A program made the translations under genes and the position numbers. The notes beneath the pieces were generated by a model that had not been told where the DNA came from, ran no database searches, and was given only the letters and a program-made list of their open reading frames with translations. 64,000 nt of DNA from Tenacibaculum sp. SG-28 (lineage in GTDB: Bacteria; Bacteroidota; Bacteroidia; Flavobacteriales; Flavobacteriaceae), in NCBI RefSeq assembly GCF_002954385.1, contig NZ_MQVY01000003.1, positions 199,757 through 263,756 of the forward strand, written 5' to 3'. Shown in pieces: positions 21,105-55,222 of this stretch; position 1 is the stretch's first letter; every line of letters starts with the position of its first letter.

Positions 21105-22610
21105 TTATTTTACCTCAAAACGAATTGGAAGCGTATACGATGTTTCTACAATTTTACCATCTTTTTCACCCGGAAGCGTCTTTGGTAGTTGTTGTAAGAT
21201 TTGCATCGTGTGTTCTTTTAATTTCTCATGGGGTGCCCTAACTTTAAGATCGGTAATCATACCATTTTTCCCAATTCGAAAAGTCGCTAAAATTCGTGTT
21301 CTACCTGCTTTGAGCCCTAAATTATCTGCCATAGTAGCGTCAAAATTATTCTTTACAAAGGTGTTAAAACTTTTCTGAAGGCAGTCTTTATCCCCTTCAG
21401 GACATCCTGGAAAAGTTGGATATTTATCTAATTTAGAAAAAGGTACCTCTTCGATCTGCATCACTGTACTTTTACTAGAAGGGGGTGTTGCAGGAAATAT
21501 ATTAATAATTTTTCTACCATTGTACTCCGAAAACTTAACTTCACCATCATGTATTATTCCTTTCTTAAATAACATTTTAATACTTTCTTTTACTTCAGCA
21601 GATAAACTTGCATAATCAATTTCCGTTCCTAATATTTGATTATCATAGGAAGAATTGACATCGAAATGGCTCGAAACTTCTTTTATAGTTATAGGTTCTC
21701 TCTTATCTCCATTGTAAAGTTTAATTTGTTCTTTTTCTGAAATAGAGGATTCGACCTCTGCTTCGTTACTACACGACGTATAAAACAGCATGGCTATTAA
21801 TGCGGGTACTAAAAATAAATACTTTAATTGTTTGGCTTTTTTGGAGTGATTCTTCTTAATCATAATAATTCGTTTTTTTAAAAGTGATTGTTTATAAAAT
21901 TGATTGGTAAAAGAGATATTTTCCACCTGAAAAACATCTGCTAATAAGGTACTGATGTAGTTGTCTTTTTCCATGGTTTTACCAACTTCAGCATCAGTTA
22001 AATATTCGTGTACTAAGGTGATTCGCTTTTGGTATAGGTATACCATCGGATTAAACCACATTACAATTCGCAGCAGTTCAAAAAATAACAAATCTATCGT
22101 GTGCTTTTGGTTTACGTGAACGATTTCATGTTGTACAATTTCTTGTTGTTTCGACTTAGCAATGAGCGAACCGATAAATATAAAATTAAAAAAAGAAAAG
22201 GCCTTGGTGGTATTCGGTAAGACTACCAAATGGTAATTTGCTTTTGTAATGGAACGATTTTTATAAACAAGCCAACCTATTTTACCTAGCTTAAGTATAA
22301 AAATTACTAAAAATACAAAGCAACCAATAGCTATAATAGTATCTAAGGTTGAAAAAGATGCATACCATTCTTTTTTTTCTATAGCAGCTTGCGGCGAAAT
22401 AATAATATCCGGAAGAAGCACATAAAACTCGGGATTAACGGATTCTCTAAGCACAGAAAACTGCATTTTTGGGAGTATAAATGAAGCCATCGCAGTGGCT
22501 AATAAATAAATTCGATTCTTCTTAAAAAAAGTCTCTCTACATAAAAACACATCATACACTAACAAAAATATGATCTGAAAAAGGATTACTTGAATACAAT
22601 AATCTACCAT
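21105..22610 (-). CDS. BlaR1/MecR1-like M56 metallopeptidase with TonB C-terminal domain
   Basis: 501 residues. The N-terminal half has four membrane helices and a cytoplasmic zinc-peptidase motif QHEIVHVNQKH (HExxH), with the downstream Glu in LVHEYLTDAEV. A further membrane helix near residue 270 follows. The periplasmic C-terminal half ends in a TonB_C-type domain (FPGCPEGDKDCLQKSF to LPIRFEV). By family, a signal-transducing protease that inactivates its cognate BlaI repressor. The repressor gene lies two bases upstream. The beta-lactam-binding domain of true BlaR1 is absent, so the inducer need not be a beta-lactam. Confidence 0.88.
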   Translation of the reverse strand: MVDYCIQVILFQIIFLLVYDVFLCRETFFKKNRIYLLATAMASFILPKMQFSVLRESVNPEFYVLLPDIIISPQAAIEKKEWYASFSTLDTIIAIGCFVFLVIFILKLGKIGWLVYKNRSITKANYHLVVLPNTTKAFSFFNFIFIGSLIAKSKQQEIVQHEIVHVNQKHTIDLLFFELLRIVMWFNPMVYLYQKRITLVHEYLTDAEVGKTMEKDNYISTLLADVFQVENISFTNQFYKQSLLKKRIIMIKKNHSKKAKQLKYLFLVPALIAMLFYTSCSNEAEVESSISEKEQIKLYNGDKREPITIKEVSSHFDVNSSYDNQILGTEIDYASLSAEVKESIKMLFKKGIIHDGEVKFSEYNGRKIINIFPATPPSSKSTVMQIEEVPFSKLDKYPTFPGCPEGDKDCLQKSFNTFVKNNFDATMADNLGLKAGRTRILATFRIGKNGMITDLKVRAPHEKLKEHTMQILQQLPKTLPGEKDGKIVETSYTLPIRFEVK

Positions 22611-22612
22611 AG

Positions 22613-22975
22613 CTATTTCTTTTTATTTACTTCTTTCAAAATTTGTTCCAACTCTTGTATATCCATATTATTCTCCTTCACAAAAAAGGAAACCAAGCTT
22701 TGAAAAGATCCGTTAAAATAGCCATTCATCAATTTGTGTATCGATTGGTTGCTGTACGAATCTTTTTCTACAATTGGGAAATACACATAACCTCTTCCCT
22801 TGGCCTTGTGACCCACAAATTCTTTAGATTCTAGTATTCTAATAATTGTAGAGACTGTGTTATACGCAGGTTTTGGCTCTGGTATTTTTGCAATCACCTC
22901 TTTTACAGAGGCTTCTTTTAAAAGCCACAAAACTTGCATTATTTGCTCTTCTGCTTTTGTTAACTGCTTATTCAT
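22613..22975 (-). CDS. BlaI/MecI/CopY family transcriptional repressor
   Basis: 120 residues. N-terminal winged helix (LTKAEEQIMQVLWLLKEASVKEVIAKIPEPKPAYNT, then TIIRILESKEFVGHKAKGRGYVYFP) and a C-terminal dimerisation helix pair. It starts an operon with the BlaR1-like protease. Its promoter carries two inverted repeats, which makes autorepression likely. Other in-operon genes (TPR protein, lipoprotein) would be under the same control. Confidence 0.92.
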   Translation of the reverse strand: MNKQLTKAEEQIMQVLWLLKEASVKEVIAKIPEPKPAYNTVSTIIRILESKEFVGHKAKGRGYVYFPIVEKDSYSNQSIHKLMNGYFNGSFQSLVSFFVKENNMDIQELEQILKEVNKKK

Positions 22976-23011: not shown

Positions 23012-23044
23012 ACTAATTTTTTAGTTAAAACTAATTTCTTAGTT
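23010..23044. promoter_or_regulatory. Tandem BlaI-type operator
   Basis: Two inverted repeats occur side by side. TAACTAA (23010-23016), 4 bases, TTAGTTA (23021-23027); then AACTAA (23029-23034), 4 bases, TTAGTT (23039-23044). Their centres are 18 bases apart. Both share ACTAA-N4-TTAGT. They abut the -7 box and cover the -33 region, where a bound repressor would block RNA polymerase. Confidence 0.7.
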
Positions 23045-29516: not shown

Positions 29517-32341
29517 TTAGAAGTTATAGGTGAAATTAAGACTAAATTGAGTGCCATTATTGTATCTCCTAACAATTTGATTGGTTTCCTCCCCAGTATT
29601 TTGATCACGTATCAACTGCGACTGTTCAATGTTCGGATTTAATAAATTTCTTCCAATAAGCTTGGCAGTTAAGCCCTTGGTAATCTCTTTACTTAAAATT
29701 AAATCAAGCGTAACAAAACCATTTTCTATAATTTCCTCGTTGTAAAGAATGTCACTATTTTCAAAATCTTCCGGATTACCTAATGCGAATATTTTATCCG
29801 AAGAATAGTTACCAACTAAAGTTGCCATAAACTCTCTTTCGGTTCTTGAATTATAGGTTAACGATCCATTAACAATCAAATCTGAGGCTCCTTGTAATTC
29901 CGAAGTTGTTTTATTGTTGTATTGAAAGTTTGGCAAAAGATCTTGCTCAAACCACATTTTGGTAATATTAGAAGTGAAATTTAAAAGAGATGCATCGTCT
30001 TCATTTTTAAGAATATCGATACGACCTTCAAATTCTAATCCTAAAACATCGGCTTGGTTTCCTGTATTAAAAAATTTAAAATTCCCAGAAGATCCTCTTG
30101 CTTGCGCTATATTTATTGGATTTTGAATTTGCTTGTAAAAAGCAGTCGCAGATATCAACTCCGATCTACTCGGAAAAAACTCCCATTTTAAATCTACGTT
30201 GTAAACATCTGATTTTTCTAGATTAGGATTACCTACAGTAACACGTCCTGTTGGAGAAACATATTCAAAAGGAGATAATTCTTTAAACTCTGGTAAAGTT
30301 TGTGTTACACTAGAGGCAAAACGTAAAAAACTCTGTTCGTTTAATTCGTATTTTAAATTAACACTTGGATACAAGCTTTGGTATTTTCTTTCTAAATCTC
30401 CAATTCTAGGAGTTCCTGTCTCTGGGTTTATATAGTTGGTTATGTCCCAAATTGCGTTAATTTCATCATACTCGTATCGCAAACCAATGTTACCTGAAAG
30501 ATTAGTGTCAAAATTAAAATCGAAATTAACGAAACCTGCTAGTATATTTAAATCTGCATTAAAACGATCTACTTTTCCTTCTCTTAATCGCAAAGTACCA
30601 TTGTCAAAATTAGTTTGTGTAAACACGCTAGAAAGCTCGTCTATCGAAGGAGCCTTAACTCCCCTTGCTCGCACTCCAACGAATTGCGATCGGAAAGAAC
30701 GCTCTTTTCTTCTGTAATTAAGACCTACATTTAACTTGAATGGTTTTGCCTCATTTTCATCTAAAGGCCCTAATTTGAACTCATTAGTAATGTATCCGTT
30801 ATACTCGGTATCTTCAATTTTTTGGGTAGACTTTCGTTGCTGAAAATCTCCAACCGTTGAAAACTCAATTTGAGAAGTGTTTGCGAAATCATCAAAATTT
30901 ACCTCATTTCGTATTCTATTTGGTTCTTCTGCCAACACAAAATTATATCCGCCAGCCCATCTAAGTGTATTGAACTCAGACCATTTGTGCTCTCCCATCA
31001 ATTGGTTTACAAAAATCGTAGTTTGCTTATAATTTTGGTCTCTAACAAAAGCTTCATCTTGCTTTGGATCTTGATCAAAAACAAAACCAAATCCTTGTCT
31101 TCCTGCCTCGTATAAAACCTCTTCTCCTTTATTAACAAACAAGGTATTGTACTTTAATTTGTTGTTGTCATTAAAACGAAGTTTTACGTTGATGTATCCG
31201 GTGGTATTGTTATTATAGGTAAACCTTTCAATATCACGCGTGTCTTCTGTAGCCCCCTTTTCTAAACTAGCTTCTCTAGTTAAACTCGGGTATGATTCGT
31301 CTTCAATGTTTGCGCGATACGCTCGAAATATTTCCGTCCGATAGTTGGCAGATTCTGAATGCGATGCGGTTGCAAAAACTCGAAATTCTTTTCCTAAAAG
31401 ATTAAATTTTTGCCCTAAAGAAAAAGACCCTCCAAAATTTAATGGTGTTCCAGATACTGCTTTGGTATCCCAGCCTTGTTGTGTGATTTGATCTACAAGG
31501 GCGTATTTTTTTCATGAAAACCGAAGGTAATATCGTCAGAAATAAGTGTTTGTCTGAAATCACCACCATAGTCTAAAAGGTTAGAATTAGACCCTCCGTT
31601 AATACTTAAAGAAAACATATTTTTTGTATACTCTTTGGAAGCGACATCCACATTACCCGATGCCTCATCGGCGTATTTGGAAGAAACGTAAGTTTTACTT
31701 ATTCCAACATTTTGAATAATATTTGTGGAAAACAAGTTTAAGTTAATGTTTTTTCTATCTACGTTATCGGATGGTATTGGCAACCCATTCATGTTTGTGG
31801 AAAGATAGCGATCTCCAAGACCCCTTACATAAATATCACCCGATGCATCACTCCTGGTTACACCTGCAATTTTTGTAGTCGCAACAGAGGCGTCAGACAC
31901 TCCTTTTTTTGCTAATTCTTGTGCCCCGATACTTTCTTTAATAACAGAAGCTTTCTTTTGTTCTAAAAGCAAGGCACTTTCTTTTTCTCTACTAACTGCA
32001 ACATTAATTTTTACTTCGTCTAAAGAAACCCCTTCGTTTGCTCCTAATAATTGATCTACAACAATAGTTTCATTAGCTTTTATAACAATTTGTTTTTCGA
32101 TAGTTTGGTACCCTACGAAACTAAAAACGATAATTTGATTTCCCGCAGGAACTTCGAAGGTATATTTCCCATCAAAATCAGTAGTACCCCCAATAGTCGT
32201 ACCTTTGATGAACACATTTGCAAAAGGTAAGGGTTCTCCGTCCATCTCCTTATCGGTTAATGTACCAGTTACAGTACCTTTACTCTGTGAAAATGCTAAA
32301 TTACATAAGCTTAAAAACGCTATGAATAGTATTTTTTTCAT
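29517..32341 (-). pseudogene. TonB-dependent outer-membrane receptor, frameshifted
   Basis: Signal peptide MKKILFIAFLSLCNLAFS, a carboxypeptidase-regulatory-like domain (GTVTGTLTDKEMDGEPLPFANVFIKGT), a plug domain (KIAGVTRSDASGDIYVRGLGDRY) and a 22-strand-type barrel ending in FSLNFTYNF with the terminal aromatic. The frame stops at 31493. Adding one A to the seven-A run (coding strand, 31506-31512) continues it as HEKKYALVDQITQQGWDT without further break to 29517. Restored length is about 941 residues. An upstream in-frame start at 32380 is possible but would extend the signal peptide oddly. The substrate is unknown. Confidence 0.85.
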
Positions 32342-32442: not shown

Positions 32443-32478
32443 TGTTAACAGTTCTTTTGTATGTTAACTTAAAGTTAA
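32443..32478 (-). promoter_or_regulatory. Repeated GTTAA motifs upstream of the TonB receptor
   Basis: Three copies of (T/A)GTTAA lie at 32443-32448, 32462-32467 and 32473-32478 on the plus strand, the last two 11 bases apart. Direct repeats with 11-base spacing are typical of PhoB/PhoP-type response regulator sites. The 134-base gap also holds a GCTAA..TTAGC hairpin. Tentative. Confidence 0.3.
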
Positions 32479-32972
32479 TCACTGGTTTTTGTAGTCTCTT
32501 GTAAATACCTCAGCAGCAGAGAATTTAAAGAATCCGCAGATAAAAAGGAGTTAACCTGAAGGTCGATATGTAAACTTTTATTTAACACAACTGTAGTTGG
32601 AAATGCTACGGTATTGTTTTTCTTAGCAATACGTTCTGCAAACTCATGTATGCCAGAACGATACCCGGAAAGTTTGTATTGGAGAGATTTCCCATTGACA
32701 ACAACTTCCTCTTTTGATTCGGCATCAAATTTCACAAAGTAAAAAGACGTATTTAGCAGTTGAATTACGCGAGAATCCGTAAAGGTATTTTTATCCATCA
32801 TCTTGCAATATTTACACCAGTTGGTATGCACAAATACTACTACTGGCCTTGGCTGTTTTACCTGTTGAATAAGCATTTCTTCCACAGTATACATTTGCAA
32901 AAGAGAAGACTGCTCCTGTGCCATACTAAAAAGAGCAAAACAAAAAAGCGATATGCACGATAGATGCTTCAT
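32475..32972 (-). CDS. Periplasmic thioredoxin-fold protein
   Basis: 165 residues: signal peptide (MKHLSCISLFCFALFSMA) and a thioredoxin-like domain with redox motif WCKYCKMMDKNTF near residues 52-64 and the cis-Pro loop AFPTTVVLN. It resembles the Thioredoxin_7/DUF255-like periplasmic proteins. Its start codon shares one base with the stop of the upstream TonB receptor (TAATG), so the two are translationally coupled. A role in keeping a metal-binding Cys or a metal reduced is plausible but only inferred. Confidence 0.82.
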   Translation of the reverse strand: MKHLSCISLFCFALFSMAQEQSSLLQMYTVEEMLIQQVKQPRPVVVFVHTNWCKYCKMMDKNTFTDSRVIQLLNTSFYFVKFDAESKEEVVVNGKSLQYKLSGYRSGIHEFAERIAKKNNTVAFPTTVVLNKSLHIDLQVNSFLSADSLNSLLLRYLQETTKTSD

Positions 32973-35193
32973 TAAAACAACTTGTAACGAACCCCTAAAA
33001 ACATACGAACACCTTGGTTAGAAGCATAAACATAAGCAGGATCAAAGCGTTCACTAAAAGGATCGTCTGCATTTAAAATACTATTCGCTGCCGGTGTAAA
33101 ATCAAGCAAATTTTTAACACCTCCAAAAACTTGAAGGTTATTGGTAAAACTTTTTGTCGCTTGAATATTTTGAATGCTATACCAAGGTGACTTTGGTGCT
33201 CGTGGATCTGTAAAATTATCCGATGGGTCATCATTTAACAAAGGTAAATCCATTGGTCCATACACATTTCCTGTATAATCAATTTTCATATCTAAAGAGC
33301 GAATCGCATACGATATACTCCAGGTACCACTAAAACTCTCGGTTAACAATTGTCTCTTTCTAACACCATCCTCTATCACAGAAACATCCATTACCGTAGC
33401 TCCCGCTAGCACTGACAAACCATTTTGCCATGTCATATCTGCATTTATAGAAATCCCTTTAGACACAGAATACCCATCTAGATTATCATATATAATTTTA
33501 CTAGAGTCCGTTTCGTAATCTGGAATGATTTTGTTAGTGAAGTAGGTATAAAAAGAACTAGCATCGATAGTTATAAAAGCATTGTTCTTAGTAATGATAT
33601 TTTTTACATAATTTATATTGGCATTCCAGGAGGTCTCGGGCAATAATTCCTCGGTAAAAACAACTTCTCTATTACCTGTTAATGCTGCGTGATCTTCGGT
33701 AAAAACATTCGCTACGCGAAATCCATTCCCGAAGCTTATTCGAATAACATCCTCCTTATCGTTCGAATTCCACTTGTAATTGATTCGTGGAGAGAAGATT
33801 CCTCCATGAATACTATTGTAATCATACCTTGCACCAAGCAAAAGGGTATTGTTTGCTGCTAAAGTGATTTCATCTTGCACAAATAATCCTGGTAAATGTG
33901 TTACAGCGGGTTCATTGACAGAATTTACAGCGGTAGCGGGTGTATTATCATCATAATTCGTGTATCTGTATGCAGCTCCTAATAATACATCATGTACCTT
34001 ACCAATTTTAGTATCCCAAACTAGCTGCCCAAAAGAAATATATTGTTCGGCCAAATAAAATGTATCTCCGTAATAGGAGTTTTGTTTATGACCATTTGCG
34101 CTAAACTGAAAGCTAATGTTTTCACTTGTTGGCAATTGATAGGTTCCAAAAGTTTCCCATCTACTGGTATAAATACTTTCACCATATATTTCATCCCCAC
34201 CTCTGTAACTCGAATTCCAATTCATTTCTCCGCCCCATCGATCTTCATAAACATAACGCCCTGCCACGCTAAACAACTTATCCTTCTTTCTTGGAAAGGT
34301 AAACTTATTAAATATCGAAAACCTGTTTTGAAGGGTTAAATCTGTAAAATTATCGCCATTATTGTCGATGGGATTTTGGTAATTAAAATAATTTACCCCT
34401 AACAAAGCATTTGTTTTTCCTAAAGCATACTTATATCCGATATCTGTATTAATTTCTGCCCAAGAACTGGCATAAGTCTCCACTGAAAGTTGTGGTGCCA
34501 AAGATGGATTTTTTGTTATTACATTAATTACTCCTCCAACTGCCTCAGAACCGTACAATGTAGATGCAGGACCTTTTACTATTTCAACACGTTCGATAAG
34601 TGCCTGTGGAATTCCAGTTAAACCATACACCGTTGACAAACCGCTTACAATTGGCATCCCATCAATTAAAACAAAGGTATACGGCCCTTCCAAACCATTA
34701 ATATGAATATCTCCGGTATTACAAACACTACAATTTACTTGTGGTCGTACACCATTTATATTTTGCATAGATTCAAAAATAGACGGCGCTGGATTCTTCA
34801 TAAAAAACGTTGGAGAATAGACCTCTACAGGAACAGGACTATCCAGTTTTTAACGGGCTTCATAGTTCCAGAAACCACCACTTCATTTAACAAAGCAGGA
34901 TCTTCCTTTAAATCAATCTCTAGAGAAATAACACCTTCTGAAGCTTCTAGTATTTTTCGTTGGCTTAAGTACCCCACAGAGGAAAATACAACTACCATTT
35001 CTCCGTTAGTAGTAACTTCGAAAGAGAACAAACCATTCTCATCCGTTGCGGCTCCTACCTTGGTTCCTTTCACAAAAACACTCACCATTTCTAATGGTAC
35101 TCCATCAGAGGTCACTTTACCTTTAATTGTTGTCTGTGAAAAAGAGACCTGATTCAGTAATGTAAATACTGCACAAAGGATAATATATTTCAT
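32972..35193 (-). pseudogene. TonB-dependent receptor of the metal island, frameshifted
   Basis: Signal peptide (MKYIILCAVFTLLNQVSFS), a carboxypeptidase-like beta domain (residues 20-100), a plug beginning LLNEVVVSGTMKPV and continuing NCSVCNTGDIHINGLEG, VLIDGMPIVSGLSTVYGL, VEIVKGPASTLYGSEAVGG, then a barrel ending in aromatic LGVRYKLF. The frame stops at 34825. One A added to the five-A run at 34847-34851 (coding strand) joins it as PVKKLDSPVPVEVYSPTFF. Restored length about 740 residues. The plug's CSVC may bind a metal. The gene is divergent from a DtxR/MntR regulator across an 18-base palindrome, so it probably imports a metal complex. Confidence 0.86.
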
Positions 35194-35216: not shown

Positions 35217-35224
35217 CAAAGGTA
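35217..35224 (-). promoter_or_regulatory. -7 element of the metal TonB receptor
   Basis: TACCTTTG on the minus strand, 24 bases before the start codon at 35193. The palindrome lies 7 bases upstream, where the -33 element would be. Confidence 0.6.
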
Positions 35225-35231
35225 AGTTATT

Positions 35232-35249
35232 TTTTAGATGCATCTAAAA
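35232..35249. promoter_or_regulatory. 18-base perfect palindrome, candidate MntR/DtxR operator
   Basis: TTTTAGATGCATCTAAAA is identical on both strands and lies between the divergent -7 boxes at 35217-35224 (minus) and 35274-35281 (plus). DtxR/MntR-family regulators bind palindromes of about this length (many contain TTAG...CTAA). Both the receptor and the regulator-importer operon could be controlled from this one site. Confidence 0.65.
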
Positions 35250-35273
35250 TATCTTTATATAAAACAAAATTTG

Positions 35274-35281
35274 TATTTTTG
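35274..35281 (+). promoter_or_regulatory. mntR -7 element
   Basis: TATTTTTG matches TAnnTTTG, 22 bases before ATG 35304. No TTG at -33. Confidence 0.5.
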
Positions 35282-35303: not shown

Positions 35304-35960
35304 ATGTACAGCCAATCGGAAGAAAACTACATAAAAACTGTGTATTATCTGGCAACAGATAAGAACAAATGGGTTAGCACTAATGCTATCGCTAAGAAAA
35401 TTAACAGCAAGGCATCTTCAGTAACAGACATGCTTAAGAAACTGGCAGACAAAAAAGTGGTAGTCTATAAAAAATACCAAGGAGTTACCTTGACAGATTT
35501 AGGAAAAAAAACAGCGGCAAATATCGTTAGAAAACACCGGTTATGGGAGGTGTTTTTGGTAGATAAACTTAACTTTTCTTGGGACGAAGTTCACGAGGTT
35601 GCAGAACAACTTGAACATATAAAATCGCCAAAGTTAATTAAGGAACTAGACGCTTTTTTAGATTTTCCTAAAACTGATCCTCATGGAGATCCTATTCCAG
35701 ACCAAGATGGAAATTCACAAATAATTGAAAAATGCTTGCTATCTACCTTAGAGAGTAATGAGGCAGGTATTTGTGTTGGCGTGCACGATACTTCCACTGA
35801 ATTTTTAAAGTTTTTAGACAAACAAGGGATTTCTTTAGGCGAAAAAATTCAAGTCATAGAGAAAGAGGCCTTTGATGAGTCTGTTCAGATAAAAACGAGC
35901 AATCTTACACTAACGGTATCTAACAAAGTCGCCAATAATATATTTATTCAAAAATTGTAA
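35304..35960 (+). CDS. Metal-dependent regulator, DtxR/MntR family
   Basis: 218 residues. Winged helix at residues 5-70 (SEENYIKTVYYLATDK, VSTNAIAKKINSKASSVTDMLKKLADKKVVVYKKYQGVTLTDLG), then a metal-binding and dimerisation domain with HRLWEVFLVDKLNFSWDEVHEVAEQLEHI and FPKTDPHGDPIP, followed by a C-terminal SH3-like/FeoA-type domain. The metal-site Glu/His pattern fits a Mn or Fe sensor. The importer gene starts one base after its stop, so it is the first gene of the operon. Mn versus Fe cannot be decided. Confidence 0.9.
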   Translation: MYSQSEENYIKTVYYLATDKNKWVSTNAIAKKINSKASSVTDMLKKLADKKVVVYKKYQGVTLTDLGKKTAANIVRKHRLWEVFLVDKLNFSWDEVHEVAEQLEHIKSPKLIKELDAFLDFPKTDPHGDPIPDQDGNSQIIEKCLLSTLESNEAGICVGVHDTSTEFLKFLDKQGISLGEKIQVIEKEAFDESVQIKTSNLTLTVSNKVANNIFIQKL

Positions 35961-35961
35961 T

Positions 35962-36876
35962 ATGAGAACTTTAACCATACTTTTGGCAATGCTTTTTACT
36001 GTTGGTGGATGCCAATCGGATAAAAAAAAGCAAAACGACAAAATAAAAATTGTCACCACCACAACCATGTTAACGGATATGGTAAAAAATATCGGAGGGG
36101 ATAAAATTAATTTAGAAGGACTAATGGGCGCAGGAGTAGATCCGCATCTATACAAAGCAAGTGAGGGAGACGTTTCAAAATTGTTTGAAGCAGATATTAT
36201 TGTATACAACGGGCTTCATTTGGAAGGGAAACTTGAGGAAGTTTTCGAAAAGATGCAACACCTGCATAAAAACACGATTGTTGCAGCAGACGCTTTGGAA
36301 AAAAACACCTTAATTTCTTCCGAAAATTTTGCTTCTAACTACGACCCACACATTTGGTTTGACATTGACAATTGGATAAAGATAACCAACTACATCTCGA
36401 GTAAGCTGATAGAACTGGATCCTAAAAATAAAGCTGCCTACATCACCAATACGGAGGCATACCTGAAAAAGCTAGCTTCTTTAAATAAAAGAGTGGGTGC
36501 TACAATAAAAGAACTACCTACTGAAGGTAGAATTCTTGTAACTGCTCATGATGCCTTTAATTATTTTGGAAAACAACACCAGTTCCAAGTAGTTGGTTTA
36601 CAAGGTTTGTCTACTGCTACAGAGGCAGGTGTACAGGATGTTCAAAAATTAGCAACATTTATTATAGAAAATAAGGTAAAAGCTATTTTTGTAGAGAGCT
36701 CGGTTCCTAAAAGAACTATTGAAGCACTTCAGGCTGCCGTAAAGGCAACAGGAAATACCGTTACTATTGGCGGTACCTTATATTCGGATGCTCTTGGAGA
36801 TCCAAATACAGTGAAGGGCACGTATATTGGCATGTATACCTACAATGTAAAAACTATTGTTAATGCTTTAAAGTAA
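35962..36876 (+). CDS. Metal ABC transporter substrate-binding lipoprotein, TroA/ZnuA family
   Basis: 304 residues: lipobox TVGGC (Cys about 17), cluster A-I fold with two lobes joined by a long helix. Metal ligand His residues are visible in [10 protein letters not shown] and NYDPHIWFD, with [10 protein letters not shown] and, near the end, an acidic residue in [11 protein letters not shown]. No His-rich loop as in ZnuA, so Mn or Fe is favoured over Zn. Two bases separate it from the ATPase gene. Confidence 0.9.
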
Positions 36877-36878
36877 TT

Positions 36879-37615
36879 ATGAAATCTAAATACGCAGTAA
36901 CCGTTGATGATTTAACAGTAGCTTACGACTACAAACCTGTATTGTGGGATATTGATTTGGCGATCCCAGAGGGAGTTCTCATGGCAATTGTAGGTCCAAA
37001 CGGCGCAGGAAAATCTACCCTGATAAAGTCTATTTTAGGAATAATAACCCCTATTGCAGGTAGTATTTCCATATTTGGAAAACCTTATAAATCCCAAAGG
37101 AAAATGGTGGCTTATGTTCCTCAGAAAGGCAGTGTAGACTGGGACTTTCCTACTACGGCATTAGACGTGGTTTTAATGGGAACTTATGGTAGTCTTGGTT
37201 GGATTAAAAGACCAGGAAAAAAAGAAAAAAAAGCAGCATTAGAAGCACTTGAAAAAGTAGGCATGTTAGCTTTTAAATCAAGACAAATAGCGCAACTTTC
37301 GGGAGGACAGCAACAAAGAATTTTTTTAGCAAGAGCACTCGTTCAAAATGCCTCGATATATTTTATGGACGAACCTTTTCAGGCGTAGATGCCACCACTG
37401 AAATTGCAATTATCAACATCTTAAAAGAATTACGAAAAGCAGGTAAAACAGTAATCGTTGTGCACCATGATTTACAAACCGTTCCTGAATATTTTGATTG
37501 GGTAACCTTTTTAAATGTTAAAAAAATAGCTACTGGACCAGTGAAAGAAATTTTTAACGATAATAATCTTACCAAAACCTACGGTATCAACTATAAAGTG
37601 AGCGTACAACAATAA
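36879..37615 (+). pseudogene. Metal ABC transporter ATPase, frameshifted
   Basis: ATP-binding subunit of the TroB/ZnuC/MntB type. Walker [10 protein letters not shown], signature LSGGQQQR and Walker B IYFMDEPF are intact. The frame then runs into TAG (37386). One G is missing before 37380 (CCTTTTCAGG for CCTTTTGCAGG). Restored, it reads MDEPFAGVDATTE and continues through the H-loop VVHHDL to a stop at 37613, sharing its last base with the ATG of the permease. About 245 residues, normal. Confidence 0.88.
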
Positions 37616-38739
37616 TGACTTTTAAAGATTACATAACACTTCTTGCTTCAGATTACACCTTACAAACCATTACACTCGGAACTGCGATTCTTGGAGCCAT
37701 ATGTGGTATGTTGGGAAGCTTTGCCGTATTGCGAAAACAGAGCTTACTTGGTGACGCCATTTCACATGCGTCTCTTCCGGGTATAGCTATTGCTTTTCTG
37801 CTAACCGGAAGCAAAGACACTAATGTGCTTTTGTTGGGAGCTTTAATCAGTGGTTTACTTGGAGCTTTTTGGATACGTGGGATTGTTAAAAAAACCCACT
37901 TGAAAACAGATACTGCTCTTGGGCTTATTTTATCGGTCTTTTTTGGCTTCGGAATGTTACTACTTACCTATATTCAAAAACAACCTAACGCCAACCAAGC
38001 AGGTCTTGACAAATTCCTTTTCGGACAAGCAGCTACACTACTTGTAGAAGACGTTTGGCTTATGGCTGCTGTTACCGGTATTTGTTTGGTTGTACTGTTG
38101 TTATTTTGGAAAGAATTTAAACTGTTGTTATTCGATGAAGACTATACCAAAACATTGGGCTTCAACACAAAGTTCATCGATATTTTAATTACGAGTTTCA
38201 TTGTTGTAGCGATTGTTTTAGGCTTGCAAACTGTTGGAGTTGTTTTAATGAGTGCAATGCTTCTTGCCCCTGCTGCAGCGGCAAGACAATGGACCAACAG
38301 CTTAGGAGTAATGCTTCTACTAGCGGCTGCTTTTGGAATAGCATCCGGGGTTATAGGAACTGGTATAAGCGCAAGTCAGTCTAATTTATCCACAGGTCCG
38401 GTAATTGTGCTTGTTGCTGGTACATTTGTTCTATTCTCTTTTATATTTTCTCCGTCTCGAGGAATACTTTTTAGACAACTAAGACTCGGGAGTAGCAGAA
38501 GAGATTTAGCACTGCATAAAACCTTGTCTTTTATGTTTGAAATTGCAAAAACACATGAGGATAAATCACACCCTCACGCAGTTCAAATTTTAAATAATTT
38601 TCAAGGATACACCATCAAAACACTAAAGAAACTTGAAGCAAAAGATTACATCACCATAAACGGAAAAATGTGGTCCATGACGAAAAAAGGCTATGCCGCT
38701 GCAGGAAACCTATACAATCAAAACTTAAAGGATGAGTAG
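37615..38739 (+). CDS. Metal ABC transporter permease 1 with winged-helix-like tail
   Basis: 374 residues. Residues 1-280 are an ABC-3 family permease (GDAISHASLPGIAIAFLL, then eight or so helices, VGVVLMSAMLLAPAAAARQW). Residues about 295-374 form a cytoplasmic extension. ILNNFQGYTIKTLKKLEAKDYI and MWSMTKKGYAAAGNLY resemble the helix-turn-helix and wing of DtxR/MntR regulators, with four His in a short stretch before it. It overlaps permease 2 by eight bases. The tail may sense metal or regulate transport. Confidence 0.88.
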   Translation: MTFKDYITLLASDYTLQTITLGTAILGAICGMLGSFAVLRKQSLLGDAISHASLPGIAIAFLLTGSKDTNVLLLGALISGLLGAFWIRGIVKKTHLKTDTALGLILSVFFGFGMLLLTYIQKQPNANQAGLDKFLFGQAATLLVEDVWLMAAVTGICLVVLLLFWKEFKLLLFDEDYTKTLGFNTKFIDILITSFIVVAIVLGLQTVGVVLMSAMLLAPAAAARQWTNSLGVMLLLAAAFGIASGVIGTGISASQSNLSTGPVIVLVAGTFVLFSFIFSPSRGILFRQLRLGSSRRDLALHKTLSFMFEIAKTHEDKSHPHAVQILNNFQGYTIKTLKKLEAKDYITINGKMWSMTKKGYAAAGNLYNQNLKDE

Positions 38740-39891
38740 TGCACAGATAGAAATACAAGCTATTGCCAGTTTGGTAGCTATAGCCTGTGCTATTCCGGGG
38801 ACATTTTTAGTCTTGCGAAAAATGGCTTTGATTAGTGATGCTATTAGTCATTCCATATTACCAGGGTTAGTGATAGGATTTTTTATCACCCATGATTTAA
38901 ATTCTCCATTGTTACTTTTATTAGGAACCTTATCCGGAATTATAACCGTCGTTTTAGTCGAGTATATTCAGAAGACAAAATTGGTAAAAGAAGACACTGC
39001 CATAGGTCTTGTATTTCCGGCACTTTTTAGTATTGGAGTTATTTTAATTGCAAAAAATGCAAACGACGTCCATTTGGATGTCGATGCTGTATTACTGGGA
39101 GAACTTGCCTTTGCTCCGTTTGATCGATGGGTAGTAAACACCATAGACCTCGGGCCAAAAGCTTTATGGGTTGTAGGGGGTATCGTAATAGTATCGGTAA
39201 GTTTACTGATTGCTTTTTTTAAAGAATTAAAGCTGAGCACCTTCGACACTGGCCTTGCTACTGCATTAGGATTTTCTCCAGCTATTTTACACTACGGTTT
39301 AATGAGCATATCATCCATTACCACCGTTGGTGCTTTTGACGCTGTTGGAGCAATTCTTGTGGTTGCCCTCATGATTACCCCTGCTGCTACCGCATATCTA
39401 TTAACAAACGACCTAAAAAAATGTTAATTTTGGCCGTTATATTTGGAGTGTTTTCGGCAATAACAGGATATTGGATAGCACATTGGTTAGATGGATCTAT
39501 TTCTGGATCTATGACTACCGTGTTGGGAGTTCTATTTTTATCGGTATACTTCTTTGCCCCAAAAAACGGGCTTATCTCTGTATTATACAGAGACAAACAG
39601 CAACAAATAGAAGTACACTTACTCACATTCTTACTACACTTAAACAATCATAAAGAAGAGAAAGAAAGACATGTCAATCATTTAAACGAACACATTAATT
39701 GGCACAAAGTTAAAGCAAAATCTGTCGTAAGTCTGGCCAGTAGAAACAATATGATTACGATAGACAACAATATAATTTCTCTTACCAACAAAGGGAGAGT
39801 TTTTACAGAAAAGGCTATCGATTACATAATGACAAACGACAACTCCAAAATTGAATCTATGAAAAAAGATTTCTTTTTGTTTAGAGGGTAG
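38732..39891 (+). pseudogene. Metal ABC transporter permease 2 with winged-helix-like, His-rich tail, frameshifted
   Basis: Second ABC-3 permease subunit (SDAISHSILPGLVIGFFI, LVVALMITPAATAYLL). The frame ends at 39427 in LTNDLKKC. One A added to the seven-A run 39415-39421 restores KKMLILAVIFGVFSAITGYW and the rest to 39891, about 386 residues. The tail holds seven His within some 32 residues (about 39619-39720) and a wing-like IDNNIISLTNKGRVF. It pairs with permease 1 to form the membrane pore. Confidence 0.85.
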
Positions 39892-54986: not shown

Positions 54987-54989
54987 CTG

Positions 54990-55060
54990 TTGGCCCACTA
55001 GGACTCGAACCTAGAATAACGGCACCAAAAACCGGTGTGTTACCATTACACCATGGGCCA
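54990..55060 (-). tRNA. tRNA-Gln (TTG)
   Basis: 71 bases. Acceptor TGGCCCA/TGGGCCA, D arm GTGT/ACAC, anticodon loop TTTTGGT with anticodon TTG, T arm CTAGG/CCTAG with TTCGAGT loop, discriminator A, no encoded CCA. The base of the anticodon stem has a C27-U43 mismatch. Confidence 0.95.
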
Positions 55061-55151
55061 AAATGCGTAATTATGCAAATATAAAACTTTATAATTTCGC
55101 ATACAAAAACATTTAAAATAAAAAAAATCCTTACATATAGTAAGGATTTTG

Positions 55152-55222
55152 TTGGCCTACAAGGACTCGAACCTTGAATATCGGTACCAAAAACCGGTGT
55201 GTTACCATTACACCATAGGCCA
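55152..55222 (-). tRNA. tRNA-Gln (TTG), upstream copy
   Basis: 71 bases, the same anticodon and nearly the same sequence as the copy at 54990-55060, with compensatory pairs in the acceptor and T stems (T-A for C-G; CAAGG/CCTTG). C27-A43 mismatch. The two genes form one leftward transcript. Confidence 0.95.

Follow-up and report, generated by a model that had tools for sequence, protein, structure and literature searches.

The DNA stretch of Tenacibaculum sp. SG-28 analysed here, 64,000 nucleotides in length and referred to as the window, contains a TonB-dependent receptor gene and a gene for a metal-dependent regulator that are transcribed away from each other. The question raised by this locus is whether the short region between them holds one operator that governs both directions. 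The initial annotation, made from the sequence alone, had described an 18-base perfect palindrome between the two divergent promoters, and this is borne out: the palindrome is TTTTAGATGCATCTAAAA, at 35232-35249. It had further proposed that this is a single operator by which one metal sensor shuts both the outer-membrane receptor and the inner-membrane importer, a proposal that is supported as far as sequence data can carry it. Our preferred reading, to which we assign a probability of roughly 0.85, is that one MntR-type repressor, loaded with Mn(II), possibly also with Fe(II), would shut receptor and importer through this one site. The features of the locus are listed in Table 1.

Table 1. 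Predicted features of the receptor-regulator-importer locus (window coordinates).
Feature	Position	Strand	Basis
Thioredoxin-like protein, CxxC, adjoins receptor	32475..32972	-	Pfam, tblastn
TonB receptor remainder in a different frame, with barrel and CxxC-bearing plug	32972..34801	-	Pfam
TonB receptor, N-terminal piece, CarboxypepD-like domain	34825..35193	-	Pfam
Receptor promoter, putative -7 box, CAAAGGTA (TACCTTTG on the minus strand)	35217..35224	-	position, box consensus
Predicted operator, perfect 18-bp palindrome TTTTAGATGCATCTAAAA	35232..35249	.	position, mismatch search, conservation, palindrome statistics
Core of DtxR-family type, TTTAG-N6-CTAAA, inside the palindrome	35233-35248		
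Regulator promoter, putative -7 box, TATTTTTG	35274..35281	+	position, box consensus
DtxR/MntR-type metal regulator, 218 aa, with HTH, metal-binding/dimerisation and FeoA/SH3 domains	35304..35960	+	Pfam
ZnuA/TroA-type metal-binding protein of ABC importer	35962..36876	+	Pfam
ABC ATPase of importer, open frame ends early	36879..37388	+	Pfam
ABC-3 permease 1	37615..38739	+	Pfam
ABC-3 permease 2, possibly extending into a different frame (39421-39891)	38732..39427	+	Pfam

The adjacent gene had been assigned to the DtxR/MntR family, and Pfam agrees, identifying a three-domain DtxR-family protein (Fe_dep_repress, E 5.7e-14, and Fe_dep_repr_C, E 2.4e-32, both past the gathering score, with FeoA matched as well). 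The binding-protein gene begins one base past the regulator stop codon. Several frames of the locus look split or shortened, namely those of the receptor (34801-34825), the ATPase (37388) and permease 2 (39421-39427), and a Pfam search of the open reading frame into which permease 2 may continue gave no match. These broken frames reflect either indel errors of the assembly or real decay; receptor ORFs of 740-785 aa are found in many relatives. A second TonB receptor in the window (31142-31493) likewise looks split or shortened. Elsewhere, the window carries two adjacent tRNA-Gln (TTG) genes at 54989-55222.

Within the window, TTTTAGATGCATCTAAAA is the sole match to itself with three or fewer mismatches (0.19 expected), and it is one of two even perfect palindromes of at least 16 nt. 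A first-order Markov random sequence yields approximately 0.9 perfect palindromes of at least 18 nt per 64 kb; palindromy by itself is near chance and hence without significance, so the evidence must come from comparison, that is, from conservation at the same place. Two sets of regulator loci were compared. The near set comprises 110 loci, 80 of them named (mostly Tenacibaculum and Polaribacter) and 30 further loci, among them that of the window and six that belong to other families within the order; these two subsets overlap, and the 97 loci with enough flanking DNA gave 85 unique sequences. In 109 of the 110, the 300 nt upstream of the regulator contain an exact TTTAG-N6-CTAAA core, which starts 35-79 nt before the gene, and the one miss (L071) is due to a contig end that leaves 37 nt of upstream DNA. 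The wider set comprises 100 loci (L226 being of the same genus), of which 98 could be tested, L252 and L277 being too short. The core upstream of the regulator is exact in 60 of these, matches at nine of ten positions in 6 and is absent from 32. By subset, the exact core was found in 30/39, 26/39 and 4/20 loci, the last being the phylum-level set, in which 15/20 loci gave no match to the core upstream of the regulator; all eight loci examined from one family of the order (f5; L295-L297, L299, L301-L304) are also without it. Control positions within genes of the wider set gave 0/98 matches at nine or more positions, and shuffled sequences gave 3/1960 exact matches and 63/1960 at nine or more. 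Although the Markov expectation given above is what a chance palindrome in AT-rich intergenic DNA would predict, that explanation is virtually untenable and was rejected on the conservation counts, the core recurring at the same place throughout the near set and far more often in the real wider-set sequences than in their shuffles. Relatives that keep both genes were also checked for loss of the palindrome, which the initial annotation had regarded as counting against an operator: the site is present in all 98 near loci with a divergent receptor, so no such loss was found.

What is conserved in the site is TTTTTAG-N6-CTAAAAA, position -2 being C or T and position +2 being G or A; the 85 unique sequences give the consensus TTTTTAGaYwwRnCTAAAAA. 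The T at -2 and the A at +2 of the window are minority letters (23% and 17%, respectively). The 20-mer TTTTTAG-N6-CTAAAAA was found in 35 of the 40 genomes of a genus sample; the copy in the window does not have this form because it ends in AAAAT. All three inner positions are paired in 5/85 unique operator sequences, and shuffled halves give 12.7. The inner bases thus have no special symmetry, and the perfect palindrome of the window is one variant: the palindrome that had been annotated is real and in its proper place, while its perfection is incidental. The half-site geometry equals that of the published IdeR half-site, and the TTAG-N6-CTAA arms lie at the target promoter.

Bacteroidota promoters have -33 and -7 elements; a sigma-70 promoter scan gave no match. 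With this consensus, two details of the initial annotation hold: the palindrome contains the -33 region expected for the receptor, and exactly 24 bases separate the palindrome from the regulator -7 box (TATTTTTG, 35274-35281). Among the 98 receptor loci, a CAAAnnTA box lies to the left of the operator in 92, with 88 starting exactly 24 nt from its centre, and a TAnnTTTG box lies to the right in all 98, starting at +35 or +36 in 82. Given this promoter structure, the operator is predicted to overlap the receptor -33 region and to abut that of the regulator.

From the sequence of the site, its layout and conservation, and the copies that stand at separated receptor and importer genes (described below), we infer binding and repression as follows. 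The neighbouring DtxR-family gene would encode an MntR-type repressor for which the palindrome serves as operator. In cells with enough Mn(II), possibly also Fe(II), dimers charged with metal would bind TTAG-N6-CTAA, covering the receptor -33 region and abutting that of the promoter for regulator and importer. With both regions covered or abutted, one site could shut the receptor, its thioredoxin-like neighbour, the regulator and the importer at the same time. Under metal shortage, the repressor would leave, and the outer- and inner-membrane layers would be induced together. It is improbable that the bound regulator instead activates one of the two promoters: the operator centre lies approximately 45 nt upstream of the expected start of the regulator transcript, which would be an activator-type place, but the published DtxR-family proteins at uptake genes are, in the parts of the reports available to us, metal-dependent repressors. 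The available part of one such report does state that MntR of Stenotrophomonas maltophilia may be needed for the exporter gene mntP (PMC13217887).

Repression of both genes by one site is to be weighed against a site that serves the regulator alone, through autoregulation and control of the importer, the nearby receptor promoter being otherwise controlled. A divergent TonB receptor is present in 98 of the 109 core-bearing near loci (97 by clustering plus the window; L032, one of the 97, holds just a 92-aa receptor piece). The operator is kept in the other 11, which have no adjoining TonB receptor, and receptor control is thus not its sole role. The usual left box is present in five of these 11 loci and absent from six; three (L040, L077 and L102) have another outer-membrane protein, which matches PF13557 in L040, the sole one tested with Pfam. 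Likewise, L250 and L256 have an operator, a regulator and an NRAMP gene, with no receptor seen in the locus. All of these loci speak for a regulator-only site.

The importers behind the regulator differ between loci. By clustering, the near set has 76 ZIP, 27 ABC and 7 FeoB-type importers among its 110 loci; Pfam was used to check one ZIP member, one FeoB-type member and the ABC genes of the window. In the seven FeoB-type loci, a DtxR-FeoA fusion and a split FeoB stand behind the regulator; in one (L007, 6654-9870), another DtxR-like protein that carries a FeoA domain is followed by FeoB split over two ORFs. The ABC importer of L104 stands behind another gene, and in other genera the importer is of the NRAMP type. 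The operator stays, then, while the class of importer differs. A quick tree, in which 37 of 96 inner branches are open, gave at least 14 importer changes; the well-supported branches by themselves demand just a single change for the ABC label and a single one for the FeoB label, so that the count of 14 is an indication only.

Control of the receptor was tested in a sister genus. Its 41 genomes include 27 with a receptor orthologue (E up to 1e-150) and 37 with a regulator match. The exact core starts 30-58 nt upstream of the receptor start in 26 of the 27 orthologues (the miss is L403), and these 26 include all 14 receptor loci in which the locus and its flanks of about 1.5 kb have no regulator. 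In some of those 14 (G325; L375/L397), the site lies between the receptor and an NRAMP gene. Upstream of the regulator itself, 30 sister-genus loci were examined: the core is directly upstream in 12 and absent from 18, and an NRAMP gene is part of every one of these 18 loci. Some of the absences in the wider set are explained by gene order: an NRAMP gene often stands ahead of the regulator in the sister genus, and all ten genomes fetched with this order (G055, G057, G086, G288, G291, G292, G293, G295, G302 and G325) have the core in front of the NRAMP gene. Six genomes in which other genes separate the receptor from the NRAMP-regulator pair (L361, L362, L364-L367; chosen once the pattern was known) have an operator copy at each. 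The receptor thus keeps a copy of its own in these six genomes and has one in 14 loci without a regulator, some of them shared with an NRAMP gene; together with the near-fixed spacing at which the site overlaps the receptor -33 region, this argues against a site for the regulator alone, which we regard as a slim prospect.

The size of the regulon was assessed with a sequence-only operator model built from 89 unique operators, that of the window included. In the genome of SG-28, where the best 150 first-look candidates were scored, the site of the window ranks first (14.5 bits, E 0.15), a weak score even though the site is in the training set. The model was also run on 40 genomes; in the checked part of these, consisting of 24 genomes in which the position of the regulator is known and G039, the best match is the site of the regulator. 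The initial annotation had suggested a genome scan for similar sites in front of metal-related genes. The site stands alone in its own genome, none of the others lying at a metal gene evident by eye. Sixteen other places were returned by the model, 11 in ORFs and five outside (L161, L162, L169, L173, L177), and of six other exact TTTTAG-N6-CTAAAA places, five are in ORFs and one (L113) is between two gene ends. With one mismatch or fewer, this pattern occurs 108 times in the whole genome and is little commoner than its reversed control (80). One of the exact copies, at 35656-35673 inside the regulator gene, was considered as a second operator and rejected, the core being found there in just 13 of the 110 near loci; it looks codon-driven. 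A wider regulon in relatives was likewise rejected: ten secondary model matches were fetched from a list with many more, seven of them are in ORFs, and the three between genes (L208, L214, L216) are without a metal role evident by eye.

A few other sequences were observed during these scans. Two facing ORFs converge with their 3' ends on a longer inverted repeat that contains the exact pattern at L113 (G000:C2:318119-318136) and looks like a terminator hairpin. The place L162 corresponds to a near-palindrome, TTTTTTAGTTAAAACTAA, at 23015-23034 of the window, before genes (21105-22975) that look BlaI-like and M56/TonB-like from their sequences; it is probably the operator of that BlaI-type system. 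In two loci of other genera, an operator-like core precedes a gene for a di-haem oxidoreductase (PF06537; L363 at 1647 and L369 at 1985), and such genes are a possible extra target. Searches of viral contigs found no relative of the regulator, searches of plasmids found no DNA similar to the intergenic region, and PHROGs gave no match.

The receptor itself is distinctive. A CxxC motif is present in the plug of 93 of the 97 neighbouring receptor ORFs; of the four misses, three (L031, L047 and L064) have the CxxC in a separate frame, and the fourth, L032, is truncated where the contig ends. Among 28 plug-bearing loci of the SG-28 genome, the CxxC plug pattern occurs in one, the receptor of the window (a match in L439 is antisense and contains a stop). 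The letters are CSVC in the window and CQNC in the examples viewed of receptor classes C and D. By tblastn, a thioredoxin-like gene lies nearby in 35 of 63 long loci, comprising 24/30 of class A and 11/11 of class C, and the same search found none near receptors of classes B (0/19) and D (0/3).

The metal to which the regulator responds was considered from its sequence and its partners. Its closest solved sequences are the metal-dependent regulator 5zr4, ScaR and SloR. Against the MntR equivalogs of NCBIfam it scores 144 bits for NF047407, its best match (cut-off 350), and 71 for NF003025 (cut-off 138), and these scores, being under the curated cut-offs, make it a member of the family and not a named MntR equivalog. 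Residues H78, E82, H97, E101, E104, H105, D125 and H127 are invariant among 99 unique regulators; Asn8 and Lys11 stand at the places of Asp8 and Glu11, and position 8, where MntR of Bacillus subtilis has the ligand Asp8, is Asn in 99/99. Glu101 aligns (by eye) with Glu99 of B. subtilis MntR and with Cys102 of iron-type DtxR. The binding protein scores 211 bits with a zinc model and at most 182 with manganese models, all far under cut-off; its best model is that of zinc AztC.

The corepressor is likely Mn(II), perhaps with Fe as well. Manganese is favoured because other genera have NRAMP partners and because PgMntR of Porphyromonas gingivalis is encoded beside the manganese transporter FB2 (which we take to be FeoB2). 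A regulator that chiefly senses iron or zinc, in a module that imports Fe or Zn, is the best surviving alternative, though we consider it unlikely. Its partners include FeoB-type and ZIP importers, Lys11, His97 and Asp125 recall the dual Mn/Fe repressor DR2539, and the binding protein is closest to the AztC model, albeit under cut-off. Against this stand Glu101, at the place held by Cys102 in iron-type DtxR and Glu99 in B. subtilis MntR, and the NRAMP partners; moreover, as far as the available parts of the reports go, FB2 is a manganese transporter (PMC4805248) and MntR makes a related receptor locus responsive to Mn (PMC13217887).

Through this one conserved site, a distinctive TonB receptor is linked with a metal sensor across a large group of bacteria, and the receptor becomes a testable candidate for the outer-membrane step of Mn(II) uptake. 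To our knowledge, an outer-membrane route for Mn(II) is known in few bacteria, MnoT being one example. More tentatively, and at somewhat less than even odds, Flavobacteriales and related Bacteroidota may have a dedicated TonB receptor for Mn (or Mn/Fe), with a redox-active CxxC plug that a periplasmic thioredoxin would reduce in many lineages, wired by a shared operator (or by paired copies) to four interchangeable, unrelated importers; TonB-driven Mn uptake would then be widespread in the phylum. The operator also persists across importer families, which clearly illustrates how regulation can outlive the parts under its control.

Compared with known systems, the predicted operator resembles that of DtxR/IdeR, TTAGG-N4-CCTAA, a 14-bp palindrome that one dimer can bind, in that the outer arms and spacing are equal; as described in the available part of that source, the two differ in the fifth arm base, which is variable here, in the C/T at -2 and G/A at +2 and in the longer A/T tails (PMC8464063). 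DR2539 of Deinococcus radiodurans, a dual Mn/Fe repressor, likewise has an SH3-like domain, Lys in place of Glu11, a retained His98 and an inverted repeat at a Mn importer gene; its reported target is mntH, no receptor being named in the part of the report available (PMC3327659). TroR of Treponema denticola is similar in being a DtxR-type Mn- and Fe-dependent repressor with an 18-bp dyad before an ABC importer, and differs in being encoded by the last gene of the tro operon; the part of the report available mentions no divergent outer-membrane receptor (PMC2628430). Within the Bacteroidota, PgMntR is a DtxR-family regulator in the operon of the Mn transporter FB2, comparable to our seven FeoB-type loci, although in the available part of its description it has twin FeoA domains and Cys in the metal site (PMC4805248); the words palindrome and TonB are absent from the main text of that paper. 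In the open-licence literature searched, we recognised no description of this operator in Bacteroidota.

The system with most in common is that of S. maltophilia, in which, according to the available part of the report, MntR controls mntH, mntP, a CQNC-type TonB receptor and a periplasmic thioredoxin-fold protein; the receptor-plus-thioredoxin locus is induced when Mn and Fe are limiting together, and the thioredoxin is suggested to reduce the receptor motif (PMC13217887). Both systems combine an MntR-family sensor with an inner-membrane Mn importer (NRAMP in our sister genus) and a TonB receptor with a CxxC plug, adjoined by a thioredoxin-like gene (PMC13217887), a likeness to the CQNC-type module in the CxxC and the adjacent gene. 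As far as that source describes them, the S. maltophilia genes have three separate predicted boxes (at the receptor locus, mntH and mntP) with a 25-bp motif, and the synteny extends to Lysobacterales, Sphingomonadales and Opitutales (PMC13217887); its main text contains no word beginning Bacteroid, Flavobacter or DtxR. In contrast, the loci described here have a three-domain regulator, a TTAG-N6-CTAA operator that is common to the divergent genes in the near set, importers of ZIP, ABC or FeoB type, and receptor classes B and D for which no thioredoxin-like gene was found nearby. The parts are of known kinds, and it is the combination of one operator for both genes, a regulator with three domains and importers that differ between loci that sets this variant apart. 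The S. maltophilia MntR module is the closest known system, and the module of this locus is a Bacteroidota variant of it with another type of regulator.
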